This document shows, in pieces, positions 1 to 8,112 of a DNA stretch of 56,471 bases. This DNA comes from Alphaproteobacteria bacterium (GTDB taxonomy: Bacteria; Pseudomonadota; Alphaproteobacteria; Rhodospirillales; Rhodospirillaceae). A program made the translations under genes and the position numbers. How positions within the stretch are numbered: the first letter of the stretch is position 1; each line of letters opens with the position of its first letter. The notes under the pieces are model-generated. The model saw nothing but the letters and a program-made list of their open reading frames with translations. It was not told the origin of the DNA and searched no databases. The stretch covers positions 1 through 56,471 of the forward strand of contig JAUIGX010000002.1 of assembly GCA_030432435.1 (NCBI GenBank). Reading direction: 5' to 3'.

Positions 1-96
1 AACGTCGTTGGCGGTCAATGCCTGCGCTAGCGCACCGCCCGGGGCAGCAGTTAGGAAACCCAACGTACAGAAAATAAGTGCCGAAAGAGTTTTCAT
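1..96 (-). CDS. Secreted protein, 5' end only (cut by window edge)
   Basis: Only the first 32 codons are inside the window. They encode a basic start (MKT), a hydrophobic core and an Ala-rich stretch ending ALA-Q, which is a typical Sec signal peptide with cleavage expected near residue 25. The ATG overlaps the TGA of the preceding gene (ATGA at 93-96), so translation is probably coupled and the protein belongs to the redox operon that starts at 5465. The mature part is outside the window, so no function can be given. A periplasmic partner of the decahaem cytochrome is plausible but is inference from position only. Confidence 0.7.
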   Translation of the reverse strand, partial: MKTLSALIFCTLGFLTAAPGGALAQALTANDV

Positions 97-512
97 CGAT
101 CAACGACCAAGTAGCCCCATCGCAAATCTTCAGCGGTGCGCACGATCACCGTGAATGTGATGGGAAGAAATTGTGTGGAGAGATCTTCGTCTGTCAGCTG
201 AAATGTGAGAACAGACTCAGCCGACGACATCAACCCGAGGTCGACGAGCGATTCTGTTTCTCCGTTCCACGGCACCCAATACCCACTCGAAGTTCTCTGG
301 CGGGCCGCATTACTCTGGAACCGTGCGACCGCGTGGCTCGACAGGACTTTCAACTCGCTAACATCTACGGCCAGCGACAATCCGTTCTCTAGATCGCTCA
401 CACTTTGGCGTCCAAAGTCCGAACCGGACGTGGAGAGTTCATACGGGTCCGCCGCAACAGACCCACTACCAATACACAAGATCAATGCAAAAACGGATAG
501 GGGCAGTTTCAC
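93..512 (-). CDS. Small secreted protein of unknown function in the redox operon
   Basis: The 139-residue product has a signal peptide (about residues 1-21, ending SVAA-D) and a mature part of about 118 residues rich in Ser, Leu and acidic residues. I see no CXXCH motif, lipobox or other cofactor motif, and the mature part has no cysteine. The start is GTG and overlaps the TGA of the FHA-decahaem gene (GTGA at 509-512), and its own stop overlaps the next ATG. It is therefore translated as part of the operon and exported with the cytochrome. I do not recognise the family. A chaperone or docking protein for the multihaem cytochrome is one possibility, without direct evidence. Confidence 0.75.
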   Translation of the reverse strand: MKLPLSVFALILCIGSGSVAADPYELSTSGSDFGRQSVSDLENGLSLAVDVSELKVLSSHAVARFQSNAARQRTSSGYWVPWNGETESLVDLGLMSSAESVLTFQLTDEDLSTQFLPITFTVIVRTAEDLRWGYLVVDR

Positions 513-2227
513 TGGCCGAACTCCGTCGTGGCTGCCTCAAACGGCGGAGCGTCGGGTTGCATCAATTCCAGACCATCCTGATGAAAGCGATGACAATCAA
601 CGCATGTGCTTGGAACAAGGTCCGCAGCATGCTCCCCGCCATGGCACGACCGGCAAGTCTCGATAGAAGGCATTAACACATCGGCCGATGTAATCGATGT
701 TTTAACTGCGTGACATGTTTGGCAGTCCACCGCGTTATGTTTCTTGTGAGTAAACGTCGCCTTGGGAAACCACTGAGTGGCAATATATACCGGCTCTACA
801 CGCCAAGTCGCCGATGACGGGTCGTCGGAAACCTGATGGCACTCCTCGCATAATCCGCGACCAAAGCGGCCGTTCACAACTTCTGCAGCCTTTGCGATTG
901 CCCAATTCTGCGCGGCTTTTTTCTCGCCAGGCGTCAGCGGTGTGCCTGGACGACGACGTAAAATCTCAGGGGCTTCAGGTTCCTGATAGCCCCCCCGCAT
1001 CGCCACAGCTTGATAGAGATCGTTAATTTGATCAAACACTAGCGACGGCTCGCTATGCACCATTTCCCGGTCTGGGAACTGTGTATCAAATCGCAAGGCG
1101 TGACATTCATGACAGTGATTTTCGAACGATATCGGCAGCATGGATATACCGCCGTCATCACTGACGTGACAGTTATTGCAGTCAAGCTGGATGTTGCCCT
1201 TTACCGGATGCTCCACACCCTCCGCACGCAAATGGTCTTCATGATTGAAAATAATTCCCGAGTTTTCTGTCGGAACCGGTGTGCCCCCCATTGGCCGCGT
1301 GCGGTCCAAAACCTGCGCCCCAACAGTCTTCGCGACCGAGGGACGAAAGTCCGGATGATCCGTTGCGAAATCCGTCGCGTTCAACAGTTTCGTTTCTACA
1401 TCGTGGCCCGGGAGGTCTTGGTGACAATCGGCGCAAAACTCCTGGTCATCCCGGACGATAGAGACTTCGCCATGATGCTCTTTGTGGCAGTTCTGGCACG
1501 ACGTATCGCCGAACGAGGCAAACGCGAACGTGTGCGGATTGGCATGGTGAGAAATTTTGGGATGGCACGACGCGCAGGTTTCATCCTGCACGGGCACAAA
1601 TGCCTTCACGTGGCACACTTCGCAACTATTCCCGAAAAACCGATGCGCCGAAGACAGCTCACCCGTATTCCAAATTGTCGTCGGCGCATGCGCGAGCGCG
1701 TTTCGATCCATCGCCGAGATATCAATATGCGCACTACCGCTAAACCAAGTTGCAATCATTGGAACAATAAGAACTGCAGCCAGCACCACTGCAAACAGAC
1801 CCCAGGACAATTGCCTCTTAGAGATGCCGACATCATCGGTGCGTACGTTCGAGCGCGTTAAAAGACTTGCTAATTCGTCGTCTTGTGGCGCCGTCATCTC
1901 GACGGAGAAAGTAACGTCCGCCTGGCTCTCGGGCGGCTCGACAATGATGACGTATGGGCCAATACGAAGTTCATCACGCTCGTGGATACGCCGGGTGTGA
2001 ACTAGATGGCCGTTGACCGACACGCTCTCTCCGGCAAGCGCTTCGATATAAAGGTTTTCAGATCGCCGGATGATCTGCGCGTGTTGCAAAAGAACCCGGG
2101 AGTCCGGCAATTCAACGTCACACGTAGTAGCACGTCCGAAAGCCACGATCTCAGAATCAAAGGATTCTTCGCGGACAGCTGTGCCTCCGTTCGTCTTACG
2201 CGTGATGTATCTAATGAGAACTTTCAA
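509..2227 (-). CDS. FHA domain - membrane anchor - decahaem cytochrome c fusion
   Basis: The 572-residue protein has three parts. Residues 1-100 read as an FHA domain (G31-R32, H49, N72-G73), although the usual phosphopeptide-contacting Ser three residues before the His is replaced by Leu46. Residues about 141-162 form one hydrophobic membrane helix. The rest is a periplasmic region with ten CXXCH haem-c sites starting at residues 202, 218, 244, 265, 350, 372, 460, 502, 525 and 542, and many extra His residues that could be distal ligands. The FHA part should lie in the cytoplasm and the haems in the periplasm. The start is TTG with a GGTAGG ribosome site, in frame two codons after the TAG of the haem b gene. 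It probably accepts electrons from the upstream membrane cytochrome b. Domain calls are confident; the reaction is unknown. Confidence 0.88.
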   Translation of the reverse strand: MKVLIRYITRKTNGGTAVREESFDSEIVAFGRATTCDVELPDSRVLLQHAQIIRRSENLYIEALAGESVSVNGHLVHTRRIHERDELRIGPYVIIVEPPESQADVTFSVEMTAPQDDELASLLTRSNVRTDDVGISKRQLSWGLFAVVLAAVLIVPMIATWFSGSAHIDISAMDRNALAHAPTTIWNTGELSSAHRFFGNSCEVCHVKAFVPVQDETCASCHPKISHHANPHTFAFASFGDTSCQNCHKEHHGEVSIVRDDQEFCADCHQDLPGHDVETKLLNATDFATDHPDFRPSVAKTVGAQVLDRTRPMGGTPVPTENSGIIFNHEDHLRAEGVEHPVKGNIQLDCNNCHVSDDGGISMLPISFENHCHECHALRFDTQFPDREMVHSEPSLVFDQINDLYQAVAMRGGYQEPEAPEILRRRPGTPLTPGEKKAAQNWAIAKAAEVVNGRFGRGLCEECHQVSDDPSSATWRVEPVYIATQWFPKATFTHKKHNAVDCQTCHAVKTSITSADVLMPSIETCRSCHGGEHAADLVPSTCVDCHRFHQDGLELMQPDAPPFEAATTEFGQ

Positions 2228-2233
2228 CGCAGC

Positions 2234-3058
2234 CTACCAATAGTAAAAGACTGTTACGACGTGCGCGATTAACGCTGCAAGCATCGCGAATGTCAGCGGA
2301 ACGTGGAAATACAGCCAGACTTGAAGTCCAAGCCTCAATTGAATGTCACGGCGAAGACGACGCAACAGCCCTTCTTTCTTAACGAGCCGCGCGAGAAGAT
2401 CTCTGCGAGCGGTGGACAATCCCTGCCCGCCCGCTTGCTCTACGTAATGCCTAGCAGCTGAGGTCGGGCAATGCGGGTCTGTCCCGGATAGCTGGCGAAA
2501 AAAGCCGTTGCCGATTCTGGTTGTCTTAACAGACTCATAAACGACATTGTTTGTTTGATCGTCGAGCGTCATTGCCAAGGTCCGAATATCGCGATCAAGG
2601 TCTGCAATTTGGCTAAGCATAACTTCCGCGGAAAGGCCGCCGCGATTTTGTGAAAGGAGGCGCGGAAATCGGCTGTAAAAATAAAGGCCTACTACTCCGC
2701 TGAGCGCCACGCCCATCATCAAAGCATACAAAAGAGTATGAATATTCCAGCCGAACTGAAAGCCGCTGTGCAACGTTGCAACAATGAGCAACGCCAGCCC
2801 TAAATACACGTGGGCCGACAGCCAGTCTTCCAGACGACCGCTATTACCCTTGTAGGAACGCTTGCGAATACCGAACCACGCAAGCCACAGCATAAGGCCG
2901 GCACTGATTGTGCCCAAAGTGTACCCTAACCATGTGCCTCCATTCGGACTTCCAACCGGCGTGTGCGCAATAAACAGAACGCTGGAAATCGCCACTAGCA
3001 CAAGCGCCCATTTCAAATAACGGTACTTGCGGTAGATCAGAATAGATTCATGCGCCAT
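2234..3058 (-). CDS. Membrane cytochrome b-like protein with two 14-residue-spaced His pairs
   Basis: The 274-residue protein has about five hydrophobic helices (near 17-33, 45-62, 82-99, 107-128 and 249-271). His83 and His97 lie in the third helix, and His252 and His266 in the last. Each pair is 14 residues apart, the spacing used in bc1-type cytochrome b to bind two stacked b haems across the membrane. A long charged segment (about 140-245) between the fourth and fifth helices is probably cytoplasmic. I chose the ATG at 3058, preceded by AGAGAA, over an upstream in-frame ATG at 3163 that would overlap the flavoprotein gene. The gene lies 7 bp after the flavoprotein and 6 bp before the decahaem gene, so a role as transmembrane electron conduit is inferred. 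It resembles ferric-reductase-like membrane domains but I cannot name a family. Confidence 0.8.
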   Translation of the reverse strand: MAHESILIYRKYRYLKWALVLVAISSVLFIAHTPVGSPNGGTWLGYTLGTISAGLMLWLAWFGIRKRSYKGNSGRLEDWLSAHVYLGLALLIVATLHSGFQFGWNIHTLLYALMMGVALSGVVGLYFYSRFPRLLSQNRGGLSAEVMLSQIADLDRDIRTLAMTLDDQTNNVVYESVKTTRIGNGFFRQLSGTDPHCPTSAARHYVEQAGGQGLSTARRDLLARLVKKEGLLRRLRRDIQLRLGLQVWLYFHVPLTFAMLAALIAHVVTVFYYW

Positions 3059-3065
3059 CGTTTCT

Positions 3066-5465
3066 CTACCGACCCGACATCGCCAAAGACATGAAGTCTT
3101 CGGGGCTGACGCGAGCTGCCGCCCCGGTTGGGCAAGCCCGAACACACGAAGCGCCCCCTTCAATACCCTTACACATGTCGCACTTCACTGCGCGCTTGAT
3201 AACGTCGCTGGCCGAGCCGCCGGTCTTGTTTTTAGAAAGATGGGTTTTATCCCCAGGAGCCGGCCCCTTACCAAACAGTAGCCAACCGAACAGATCAAAC
3301 TTTTCCTCGGGTGGCGACGCCATTTGAATTACACCGTAGGGACAGTTGCGCTGACAGTTCCCGCAGCCGATGCAGCTGTCATCGATAAACACCTCGCCAT
3401 CAGGCGCCCGGTGGATTGCATTTGGCGGGCAATCCGCCATGCAATGAGGGTGTTGGCAGTGTCTGCATGACGTAGGCACGTGAATAGTGGCAAATGACGG
3501 CCCCGCGCCACGGTCCAACCGCGAAATTCCATCGTGTGTTTCGGCGCAAGCTTTTTCACAATTATCGCAATGGACGCATAGGCTTTCGTCAATCAAAAGA
3601 ACGTCAGTTCCTTCGCCAACACCCTGCTCTACCAAGAATTGGATGATATTTCCGGCTTCCGGCCGTCCTTCCATCTGCTCGTTACTGCGTATGCGCTCAC
3701 GGAATTTTGCCTCGACCGCCGTACGCACGCTGTCATTCGACTGCATCAATGCTTTGAAGGATTGGCCGAGAATACAAATTGTCTCCACGTTGTGCGCGGC
3801 CCGAACCGTCGCCGACCTCGGCATATCCGATAACAACGCCATTTCGCCGACATAGTTACCGGACGGCACGTAATTTAAGACGACGTCCTTTCCACCGATC
3901 CGCTTGGAAATTGTACAGGAACCAGCCCGTATGAGGTGCATGTGATCACCCTCATCGCCCTCTTCAAAGAGCACTTCCCCTGCCTTGAAACGATGAATTT
4001 CCGCCGTATCAACGAGAGTTTTAAGGTCTTCGACCGGCACCCCGGGCGTCAGGTACATCTGGACTTGACGCAGGATCGCCGTTTTATCCAGTGTTCGCCG
4101 AACCTCTTCAACGGACTGAATAAGTTTAAGCATCGTCCGTCTTGTCGTTTCGAAAAGCACACAGTCGGTAGCCGCCACCACGGTCGCTGTGCGCCGCCGA
4201 CCCGAGATAAGCCCCATCTCGCCGAAAAACTCTCCTTCGCCGAGGGTAACCATCTGCGTGGGATCAGAAGGGTTTATCTGAATACCGACCGTTCCGCGAA
4301 AGATCGTAAAAAAGGTATCCGAGTAGTCATTCCGCTCAAAAACGACTTCGCCCTTTTTGAGAGGATGAACCTTGGATTCCAGCATCGTTTCCCGAAGCAG
4401 CAGCGGATTCAGACCAGCAAATATTGGAATCGATGTGCGAATTGAAGCCAACACTTCGTTGACCTTGACCTTTCCCATACCGGAGAATCGCTCCTCCAAT
4501 ATCGGCTGATCCGCCGGCGCAATATCATTGCCTGCAATGTACTCAACAACCTCGTATCCCTGATTGAGCGCCTGCTTGATAAGCGGATAACCGCCCAGCG
4601 CGCCTATGATGTACAGACCGGGGACGTTCGATTCATACGTTTCTGAAACTTCGGGCAATGCCCCGGCATCGGCGCTTGGAAACACAATGCCGCAGCTCTC
4701 AACAAACTTGCGCGGAGGCGATGCGCCGAGACGGGCGATGATACGATCGCACGGCACCCTCGCTTCGCCGTCTTCCGTTTCAAGAACAAGGACGCCCGGC
4801 TCAATAAGCGACGGTGAAGCGCTATAATAACACTGCACATCGCCTCTGGAGATCGCGTCCGTGATCAGCGACAGATTACTCTGCTTCGCGCGCGCGAATT
4901 CGCTGCGCCGGTTTATGATGATAACCGTATTGAGCCGAGATAATGCGACCGCATTCTCAATCGCCGCGTCACCGGCACCAATCACGACGATGGTTTCCGC
5001 CTCGTACTCATCAGGATCATCAAGCTGATACTGAACAAACGGCAGGTCGGCGCCCTCACAGCGCAATTTGTTTATATTTCCCTGCAATCCGATAGACAGC
5101 ACCACAGTCTCGGCTAAGACCGTGTCCCCACCAGCAAGGGAGAGTGTGAATACGCCGTCTTGTTTGGTAATCGCGCTAACATCTGCGTTGTAGCGGACAT
5201 TAGCCTTATGCCGATCTAGCCCCTGATCCCAGGCCTCCAAAACCTCTTCGCGCTTGCCGGCCTGGAAGCTCAGGTCCGAGCGCAGTGGCAGAATGTCCGG
5301 CGTTGCCATGACAAACTTGCCTTTTTGGTACTTATATATGGTGTCCGAGGCATGATCAGTCCGCTCAAGTAGGACGTGCGTCATACCGAGTTTAGCGGCA
5401 TGCGCGGCGGCACTCGCCCCCGCCGGGCCCGAACCGACGATGGCGACCTTAACGACCTCCGACAA
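3066..5465 (-). CDS. FAD/NAD(P) oxidoreductase - two cNMP-binding domains - four [4Fe-4S] ferredoxin fusion
   Basis: The 799-residue soluble protein has three modules. Residues 1-315 form a thioredoxin-reductase-like flavoprotein: FAD motif GSGPAG at 11-16, NAD(P) motif GAGDAA at 163-168, and a C-terminal FAD region near 285-300. It has no CXXC redox disulfide. Residues about 345-460 and 475-585 are two cyclic-nucleotide-binding domains, each with a phosphate-binding-cassette pattern (FGEMGL...RRTA at 414-427; VGEMALL...PRSA at 539-552). Residues 620-799 form a DmsB/NrfC-like ferredoxin with four Cys groups beginning at 630, 667, 698 and 762, enough for four cubane clusters. It probably takes electrons from NAD(P)H, or from a ferredoxin, and passes them to the membrane haem b. 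The start is TTG behind GGGGGA. It is the first gene of the operon. Confidence 0.88.
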   Translation of the reverse strand: MSEVVKVAIVGSGPAGASAAAHAAKLGMTHVLLERTDHASDTIYKYQKGKFVMATPDILPLRSDLSFQAGKREEVLEAWDQGLDRHKANVRYNADVSAITKQDGVFTLSLAGGDTVLAETVVLSIGLQGNINKLRCEGADLPFVQYQLDDPDEYEAETIVVIGAGDAAIENAVALSRLNTVIIINRRSEFARAKQSNLSLITDAISRGDVQCYYSASPSLIEPGVLVLETEDGEARVPCDRIIARLGASPPRKFVESCGIVFPSADAGALPEVSETYESNVPGLYIIGALGGYPLIKQALNQGYEVVEYIAGNDIAPADQPILEERFSGMGKVKVNEVLASIRTSIPIFAGLNPLLLRETMLESKVHPLKKGEVVFERNDYSDTFFTIFRGTVGIQINPSDPTQMVTLGEGEFFGEMGLISGRRRTATVVAATDCVLFETTRRTMLKLIQSVEEVRRTLDKTAILRQVQMYLTPGVPVEDLKTLVDTAEIHRFKAGEVLFEEGDEGDHMHLIRAGSCTISKRIGGKDVVLNYVPSGNYVGEMALLSDMPRSATVRAAHNVETICILGQSFKALMQSNDSVRTAVEAKFRERIRSNEQMEGRPEAGNIIQFLVEQGVGEGTDVLLIDESLCVHCDNCEKACAETHDGISRLDRGAGPSFATIHVPTSCRHCQHPHCMADCPPNAIHRAPDGEVFIDDSCIGCGNCQRNCPYGVIQMASPPEEKFDLFGWLLFGKGPAPGDKTHLSKNKTGGSASDVIKRAVKCDMCKGIEGGASCVRACPTGAAARVSPEDFMSLAMSGR

Positions 5466-5857: not shown

Positions 5858-5935
5858 TGGGGCGAGTAACGGGTCTCGAACCCGTGACCTCCTGGACCAC
5901 AACCAGGCGCTCTAACCAACTGAGCTATACCCGCC
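5858..5935 (-). tRNA. tRNA-His (GTG)
   Basis: The minus strand folds into a full cloverleaf. The acceptor stem pairs GCGGGTA with TACTCGC, the anticodon stem is CCTGG/CCAGG with loop TTGTGGT (anticodon GTG), the T arm is ACGGG-TTCGAGA-CCCGT, and CCA is encoded at 5860-5858. An extra G at 5935 faces discriminator C at 5861, the G-1 identity element specific to tRNA-His. Confidence 0.96.
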
Positions 5936-6158: not shown

Positions 6159-6554
<396 letters not shown>

Positions 6555-6702
6555 TCCGTTTAGCCAAATCGCCGGAGACAAAGAAAAAATACCCGGCGCA
6601 TACCAACTACGCGCAGTACACGAATTAAGACGATAGTCCGCAAGGGTTAGCTGCGCTCTTACAAAACATCGCAACAGCGAACGGCAGGAACAGGAAAGCA
6701 CC

Positions 6703-8112
6703 ATGTCAGACGTAAAAAAGATCTTGGAGATGATTAAAGAAAAGGAAGTCAAATATGTTGATTTCCGATTCACCAATCCGGCGGGGAAATGGCAGCATAC
6801 GGCACAGTATGTGGACACCGTAGACGAAGAAATGCTGACAGAAGGCATTATGTTCGACGGATCTTCCATTGCGGGATGGAAAGATATCAATGAGTCCGAC
6901 ATGAGCTTGAGACCGGACCTCTCAACAGCCGTCATGGACCCTTTTACCGCGCAGCCGACTCTCATCCTTTTCTGCGACGTGATAGAGCCCTCCACCGGCC
7001 AACTCTATGAACGCTGCCCGCGCTCCATCGCGCACAGAGCGATTGATTACATGGCGGCGGCAGGCGTCGGCGACACAGCGTACTTTGGCCCCGAAGCTGA
7101 GTTTTTCATCTTTGACGATGTGCGCTATTCGACGTCACCGAACAACATGTTCTTCTCCCTGGACAGTGAGGAAGGCCCGTACAACGACGGTCGCCCCTAC
7201 GAAGAAGGCAACCCGGGCCACCGCCCGCGCGTCAAAGGGGGATATTTTCCTGTCGCCCCCGTCGACAGTGCGCAAGACTTGCGGGCTGAAATGGTTTCCG
7301 TTCTGTCGGAGATGGGCCTCTCGATGGAAAAGCACCATCACGAAGTGGCTCCTGCTCAACATGAACTCGGCATCAAATTCGATACCTTGATGAAGATGGC
7401 CGACGGTATGCAGATTTATAAATACGGTGTGCACATGGTTGCCCACTCGTATGGCAAAACGGCAACTTTCATGCCCAAGCCAGTGTTTCAAGACAACGGC
7501 TCGGGCATGCACGTCCACCAGTCCATCTGGAAGGACGGAAAAAACACCTTCGCCGGATCAGGCTATGCAGATCTGTCCGAAACGTGCCTGTACTACATTG
7601 GCGGGATCATCAAACACGCCAAAGCGATCAACGCGTTCACCAACCCCACGACCAATAGCTACAAGCGGTTGGTGCCGGGCTACGAAGCACCGGTGTTGCT
7701 CGCCTACTCCGCGCGCAACCGCTCCGCGTCTTGCCGTATCCCGCACGTCTCAAGCCCCAAAGGCAAGCGTGTCGAAGTACGCTTCCCAGATCCCTCGGCA
7801 AATCCGTATCTGGCCTACTCCGCCATGCTGATGGCCGGCCTTGACGGCATCAAAAACAAAATTCATCCGGGCGACCCGATGGATAAGAACCTTTATGACC
7901 TGCCTCCCGAGGAACTGGCTGGCGTGCCGACCGTTTGCGGAAGCCTCCGTGAAGCTCTCGATAACCTCAATGCAGACCGTGACTTCTTGACGGCAGGCGA
8001 TGTGTTCACCAACGATATGATTGATGGCTACATCAGCTTGAAGATGAACGAAGTGATGCGCTTTGAGACCACACCGCATCCGGTGGAATACGAAATGTAT
8101 TACAGCGTCTAA
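6703..8112 (+). CDS. glnA: Glutamine synthetase type I
   Basis: The 469-residue product makes glutamine from glutamate, ammonia and ATP as a cytoplasmic dodecamer. Typical GSI segments are present: [11 protein letters not shown] near residue 50, the metal/substrate region with EAEFFIFDD, the [10 protein letters not shown] loop, and NLYDLPPEE around residue 397, whose Tyr is the adenylylation site of the GSI-beta type. The ATG follows AGGAAAG. A strong terminator follows at 8143-8177. Regulation by PII (encoded upstream) and by adenylylation is expected from the family. Confidence 0.97.

Follow-up and report, generated by a model that had tools for sequence, protein, structure and literature searches.

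An operon for a predicted flavoprotein-fed, multihaem electron transfer system with built-in cyclic-nucleotide-binding domains in a member of the Rhodospirillaceae

The left end of contig JAUIGX010000002.1, from the alphaproteobacterial assembly GCA_030432435.1 (Rhodospirillaceae), carries a minus-strand operon of five head-to-tail genes, A to E, of which A to D are complete and E is partial. The window is the whole 56,471-nucleotide stretch that was analysed, which is this entire contig (C204). The products of A, B and C are predicted to form an electron path: a flavin and iron-sulphur (Fe-S) protein as input, a membrane protein with two b haems, and an FHA-anchored decahaem cytochrome c as output. 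An initial annotation, made from the letters of the window, had proposed such a transmembrane redox operon. All three of its stages are borne out, and the operon is larger than first described, as genes for a barrel protein (F), a decahaem protein (G) and a tetrahaem cytochrome (H) lie off the contig. Because each of 46 aligned A sequences has all 16 Fe-S cysteines and each of 35 B sequences the same five histidines, chance is excluded, at the level of sequence, as the source of the operon's conservation. We lean towards reading A, B and C as an electron exporter, fed by NAD(P)H and gated by a cyclic nucleotide, that serves G as a conserved envelope multihaem oxidoreductase. We class it with the envelope-spanning multihaem electron transfer systems.

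Relatives of the operon came from a pattern-based scan with one genome per species, in which the best 80 of 239 confirmed stretches were considered, a sample rather than a census. A real A is present in 49 loci (L009-L057); another 31 (L058-L088), whose similarity to A (25-38%) is partial and mainly confined to its cyclic-nucleotide stretch, were excluded. Rows that were cut, contained stops or had an odd length were dropped before alignments and counts (4 of 49 for A, 3 of 37 for B, 4 of 35 for C, 4 of 34 for F and 5 of 31 for G), and the query row of G was trimmed to 1192 residues.

Protein A joins three modules in one chain (Table 1). The proposal of a flavin and Fe-S protein with two cyclic-nucleotide domains stood up well, with Pfam domains above cut-off and ligand residues invariant across the alignment; the 16 cysteines are the full set of a four-cluster Fe-S subunit. 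Both cyclic-nucleotide domains retain the pocket Gly-Glu pair in all 46 sequences, even though the most divergent is only 51% identical to the window protein, and the pocket Arg is present in 46 of 46 in the first domain and 44 of 46 in the second. These pockets were scored on the Gly-Glu/Arg motif that we take to mark the phosphate-binding cassette. An NRR-like stretch after the second nucleotide motif (Asn in 44, Arg in 43 and a second Arg in 22 of the 46), presumably an NADP(H) marker, suggests NADP(H) as the cofactor of A.

Among PDB sequences, A matches YpdA (7a7b), tandem PKG/PKA-R and HycB3. It shares its FAD/NAD(P) domain with YpdA/Bdr and the thioredoxin-reductase-like flavoproteins, but it scores 119.8 bits against a curated YpdA cut-off of 339.9 (TIGR04018; best 25 of 108 NCBIfam matches considered) and is fused to cyclic-nucleotide-binding and Fe-S domains. 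The position that we take to be the YpdA-type Cys holds a Cys in 2 of 46 sequences. Likewise, a 16-Cys ferredoxin domain beside a membrane b-type partner is common to four-cluster Fe-S subunits of the DmsB, NrfC, HybA and HycB kind, whereas in A this domain sits fused behind the flavin and two cyclic-nucleotide domains. Neither a molybdoenzyme nor a hydrogenase was recognised in the operon proteins covered by Pfam scans. PADLOC matches A to the cyclic-nucleotide stretch of Pycsar-type effectors and to a cyclase; a defence-system reading was considered and not adopted.

Protein B would provide the membrane step. Hydropathy gives five hydrophobic segments in 30 of 35 sequences, six in three and four in two. 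Its invariant histidines are His 84, 98, 108, 253 and 267, and the pairs 84/98 (helix 3) and 253/267 (helix 5) are each 14 residues apart, a spacing that we take to be the classic bis-histidine di-haem pattern. The di-haem b pattern first noticed in the window is invariant across these aligned sequences, and B is predicted to be a five-helix membrane protein with two b haems. It matched no Pfam family above cut-off and no NCBIfam family; seven matches of its profile to PDB sequences (E 0.33-0.89, mostly ATP synthase b) were taken as chance.

The description of C as an FHA-anchored decahaem cytochrome c was likewise upheld. Its FHA domain (PF00498) scores 36.8 bits against a cut-off of 20.7, hydropathy finds one hydrophobic segment in 28 of 32 sequences (a predicted transmembrane helix at residues 144-162 of the window protein), and the window protein has ten CXXCH motifs. 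Ten motifs recur in 26 of 35 sequences; four from Gallionella have nine plus a CX4CH, and the remaining five are truncated, frameshifted or of ambiguous sequence. These features predict a cytosolic FHA domain, one transmembrane helix and a periplasmic decahaem cytochrome c. A phospho-regulatory role for the FHA domain fared worse. The Gly-Arg pair is present in 32 of 32 sequences, and the Ser that we assume to be the canonical phosphothreonine-binding residue in 0 of 32, so canonical phosphopeptide binding is unlikely and phospho-regulation doubtful. The degenerate domain is probably a cytosolic dock for A and not a phosphopeptide reader. At one relative locus (L010, genome G090), C is without a haem motif in the extracted frame.

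Table 1. Operon genes and the modules of protein A. Positions are in the window except where a residue range or another locus is given.
Feature	Position	Strand	Length	Description
A	5465-3066	minus	799 aa	
A, module 1	residues ~1-315			TrxR-like FAD/NAD(P) domain; Pfam Pyr_redox_3, 100 bits
A, module 2	residues ~339-595			Tandem cyclic-nucleotide-binding domains (PF00027); two stretches, 137.2 bits against cut-off 27.5
A, module 3	residues ~620-790			Four-[4Fe-4S] ferredoxin domain (Fer4)
B	3058-2234	minus	274 aa	
C	2227-509	minus	572 aa	
D	512-93	minus	139 aa	Small; N-terminus read as a signal peptide; without family (Pfam)
E (partial)	96-1	minus	first 32 codons, then contig end	HbpS/GlcG-like repeat protein; signal-peptide-like start
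E (complete)	L116 4179-2299 (contig C30)		626 aa	

The genes are tightly packed, with 7 nt between A and B, 6 nt between B and C, and 4-nt overlaps at C/D and D/E. As the window is a whole contig in an assembly of 312 (estimated 95% complete, 5.5% contamination), the operon is cut by its end and E is incomplete. Of the two secreted proteins originally read there, D is complete with a signal-peptide-like N-terminus, whereas E is present only as its opening codons. When the assembly was searched with E and G from a relative, the continuation came to light on contigs C30 and C305: E, F and G, then H in convergent orientation. C30 shares one end with the first 128 bases of the window (1 mismatch) and the other with the first 150 bases of C305 (2 mismatches); strain variation may thus have broken the assembly. 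E, the 593-aa F and the beginning of G lie on C30. The remainder of G, an open frame of 1160 aa with eight CXXCH, is on C305 together with H, which has 457 aa and four CXXCH.

Protein G is a decahaem cytochrome with LVIVD repeats. All ten haem motifs are visible in the 9 of 31 rows that are long enough, most others being cut by contig or locus ends. In six of six comparisons between our genome and six genomes or locus pairs, G is the best conserved gene (63-70%, against 49-64% for A and 29-41% for C; the first residues of our G are missing from C305), which speaks for a specific reaction and not a generic surface conduit. It is a very conserved multihaem protein without assigned function. Against the NCBIfam model ExtM (NF040943) it scores 72.7 bits in colinear pieces, short of the cut-off of 800, and about 20 bits each against ExtO and ExtN; across 13 genomes the ExtM cut-off was reached in none and a weak match appeared in nine. 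A match to MtrC/MtrF domains lies below cut-off, and the G profile has no PDB sequence match at E <= 0.1. By a simple pattern, a lipobox is absent from 30 of 31 rows, a weak test given that several start positions are approximate and one of the rows is fragmentary. In genome G090 (contig C14; the genome of L010), many stops break G, which matches at 40-47%; this operon copy is either decaying or poorly sequenced.

Pfam scans of the other downstream products find HbpS-like repeats in E, and H has a cytochrome c554 domain and is a tetrahaem c. A count of lipoboxes in H (10 of 17) was set aside because the pattern mostly matches the first haem region. The F of relative L009 was modelled from 30 sequences as an 18-strand outer-membrane barrel (mean predicted local distance difference test score, pLDDT, 68; residues 21-117 mostly poor). 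Its best structural match in the PDB is AlgE (Foldseek E 1.5e-16; Z 27.1, root-mean-square deviation 2.8, 358 aligned, 12% identity), and OprD-type porins are also among the best; this ranking, by VIA-align, covers Foldseek candidates, and barrels outside that set are not excluded. The F profile matched no PDB sequence at E <= 0.1. F is thus modelled as an AlgE-type 18-strand outer-membrane barrel by fold, and the shared fold shows no function such as alginate export. D was found in 18 of the 49 relative loci at E <= 1e-5.

By title, the 49 A loci are from Alpha-, Beta- and Gammaproteobacteria, plus two Marinimicrobia and one uncultured bacterium. B lies beside A in 37 of them, at a gap of 2-78 nt, and the gap from B to C is 3-15 nt in 32 of 34 cases and 163 and 174 nt in the other two. 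In nine of the remaining 12 loci, A directly follows G or H; the other three are two contigs that end at A and one short Limnobacter contig. The order A-B-C-(D)-E-F-G recurs in alpha- and gammaproteobacterial loci. One Limnobacter genome reads B-C-E-F-G-H-A; since B and C lie upstream of E there, no part of the set is lost and only its arrangement differs.

In 398 genomes drawn evenly from the phylum, A is in 15 (E <= 1e-100) and B in exactly those 15 (E <= 1e-20). G is in 11 of the 398 (E <= 1e-60), all among the 15. Across 73 genomes of the family, A is in 18 and G in 15, all among those 18, with the one stop-broken copy in G090; the genomes with A alone are G024 (58% complete), G028 (88%) and G082 (97%, A fragmentary). 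Independent co-occurrence events are fewer than these genome counts, owing to shared ancestry. Among the 19 genomes reached via A loci, G is in 15. In sequence, A-B-C looks like a core and E-F-G like a usual but separable extension. Two loci (L028 and L029) have A-B-C followed by a convergent H, with no E-F-G; the genome of L029 is without G, which suggests H as an alternative partner.

Named holders of the set include Sphingobium herbicidovorans, Limnobacter and Oceanibacterium hippocampi. In a plasmid collection, A occurs in 12 of 72,556 records, all from Sphingobium. The annotation of one such plasmid, pMSHV of S. herbicidovorans, calls A cyclic nucleotide-binding, B hypothetical, C cytochrome c3 family, E heme-binding, F hypothetical and G a multiheme c-type cytochrome.

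Genes for enzymes of cyclic-nucleotide metabolism lie next to some copies. An SpdA/CpdA-like metallophosphoesterase gene adjoins C in 7 of 70 loci, six of family f8 and plasmid pMSHV, where it lies 20 nt behind C. A CHASE2-adenylate cyclase adjoins A at eight loci in seven genomes, one of which contributes two loci; five of the genomes are titled Limnobacter and the other two are assemblies near it. A relative lies ~4 kb from A in L034, and a FIST-domain cyclase ~2 kb from A in L155. The genome of L155 (G092) has two copies of A, there and on contig C96, and B stands beside only the one without the FIST-domain cyclase. All these cases amount to at most four independent events, and the phosphodiesterase gene close behind C is a stronger link than the cyclase neighbours. 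Given the conserved pockets and these neighbours, cyclic-nucleotide gating of A is plausible.

Under the exporter reading, A, B and C would form an inner-membrane complex in which NAD(P)H reduces the FAD of A. The four Fe-S clusters would then relay the electrons to the b-haem pair of B, which would carry them across the membrane to C, with its ten c haems in the periplasm and its FHA domain docking A. Because the cyclic-nucleotide domains sit between the flavin and Fe-S modules of A, binding of cyclic AMP or cyclic GMP could move these modules relative to each other and so gate electron entry. From C, perhaps via H, electrons would reach G, a decahaem protein with an LVIVD propeller, which we infer to act in the envelope, with F and the HbpS-like E, on a substrate in or beyond the periplasm. 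The membrane potential favours such outward flow. Envelope electron export is usually described as quinol-fed and controlled at transcription; a flavoprotein entry with built-in cyclic-nucleotide domains would let a second messenger control electron flow at the protein level. In a bolder form that we advance only tentatively, the system would be a respiratory-type wire that links cytosolic NAD(P)H with the outer envelope and is switched at its entry by a second messenger, cyclic AMP or cyclic GMP setting the flow from between the flavin and Fe-S modules, and G would found a new class of conserved envelope oxidoreductase. As named strains hold the set, gating and substrate are directly testable.

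Several observations weigh against this picture. Three Gallionella genomes and one of the Rhodospirillaceae, four of the 19 reached via A, have A-B-C without any match to G, so the module can serve other partners. The holders include genera that we take to be aerobic heterotrophs and others that we take to be lithotrophs, and such a mixture does not point to one substrate. In the model of G the propeller part alone is confident, and the haem part is poor (mean pLDDT 38). The three phosphodiesterases scanned fall far below the curated SpdA and CpdA cut-offs. Finally, our genome has seven cyclase matches in 3.31 Mb, so that ~4% of genes are expected within 10 kb of one, and scattered single cyclase neighbours could be chance.

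Other explanations differ from the exporter reading in direction, substrate, architecture or control. If electrons ran the other way, G, with H, would oxidise an external or periplasmic donor, and C, B and A would pass the electrons into the cell, with NAD(P)+ or a quinone at B as acceptor, in the way of lithotrophic uptake. The module does occur in Gallionella and Limnobacter, which we associate with lithotrophy. PMC10734462 gives a ten-haem 'Forkhead-associated protein' cluster (cluster 403) in 27 of 87 genomes from iron-oxidising Gallionellaceae. Presumably it is the C family, the match being by name, haem count and host family only. Flow to NAD(P)+ would nevertheless be uphill, against the membrane potential, with no coupling subunit recognised in the operon, and G is absent from the three Gallionella genomes searched. 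The module is also found in Sphingobium, which we take to be a heterotroph, and we regard inward flow as unlikely. It is also improbable that the cyclic-nucleotide domains of A are structural leftovers that bind no nucleotide. Nucleotide binding by A is a prediction from sequence, but the pocket pair has survived in every aligned sequence of both domains while the rest of the protein diverged.

Two further alternatives concern G and the barrel, and both bring in known systems. The Geobacter sulfurreducens cluster extHIJKLMNOPQS likewise combines a barrel of the porin type with several multihaem cytochromes and a b cytochrome of the inner membrane, and when the porin-like ExtI is lost, the reduction of selenite and tellurite suffers (PMC5877670; the ext conduits are also treated in PMC6148476). 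By analogy, our system could work in the envelope to reduce a metal(loid), haem or iron complex. The substrate would enter through F and be reduced by G, with E handling haem and the cyclic-nucleotide domains tuning the supply. This possibility, which we hold only tentatively, is compatible with the exporter reading and adds a substrate class to it. The colinearity of G with ExtM from this selenite- and tellurite-associated cluster, and its weaker likeness to ExtO and ExtN, argue for it, as do the HbpS-like repeats of E and the porin-type barrel of F, as predicted for ExtI (PMC5877670). On the other side, none of the 13 genomes reached the ExtM cut-off, B has no NCBIfam family, and Pfam scans of A to H found no Rieske domain. 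G spans 1244 positions and has ten haem motifs and LVIVD repeats, against 599 positions and the 12 motifs given for ExtM, and the Rieske and bc-type parts of the ext cluster are replaced here by A and the FHA-decahaem C. A true extracellular conduit, as in MtrCAB, would place G on the cell surface with F as a cytochrome sheath. Envelope barrel and decahaem cytochromes are common to MtrCAB/MtoAB and our system, the two genes lie side by side, and G has its below-cut-off match to MtrC/MtrF domains. MtrB-type sheaths have 26 strands, however, and the predicted AlgE/OprD-like barrel of F, with 18, is narrower; G shows no lipobox in nearly all rows of that weak test. No MtrB_PioB (PF11854) match was found in our ~95% complete genome, nor one over cut-off in 14 control genomes, a search with no strong positive control. 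Electron entry here looks like a cytosolic flavoprotein and not a quinol oxidase. In addition, G is the best conserved gene, whereas conduits of the Desulfuromonadales vary most at the surface, according to PMC6148476. We consider such a conduit improbable. Judged by profile comparisons, G is distantly related to ExtM, and the system matches neither MtrCAB nor the Geobacter ext cluster.

The initial annotation knew of no characterised complex of this combination, and full-text literature searches, with most subscription journals outside their reach and longer result lists judged by the titles and opening abstract lines of the papers listed, found none; one paper, PMC10734462, has the related entry described above. 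FHA and cyclic-nucleotide terms do not occur in the main text of PMC10553843, PMC11976967, PMC5566968 or PMC6295460.

Upstream of A, FNR and CRP consensus sites were found 0 times in 45 sequences (shuffled means 0.8 and 1.0). Promoter-like matches are no more frequent than chance would give (5 against 4.6). Terminator-like matches number 12 against 7.6 (standard deviation 2.5) and were not used for any inference. In our own genome, a 245-aa protein with a signal-peptide-like start (L117 4843-5580) overlaps the start of H; it has no Pfam or NCBIfam match at E <= 0.05. Upstream of the operon, the window encodes a tRNA-His (5858-5934) and, on the other strand at 6183-8112, a PII-like (GlnB) protein and a glutamine synthetase, named by reading the sequence alone. 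At two relative loci (L149 7907-9982; L160 10909-11880), genes for CcmF and a TPR protein matching CcmH, of cytochrome c maturation, lie divergently just upstream of A.

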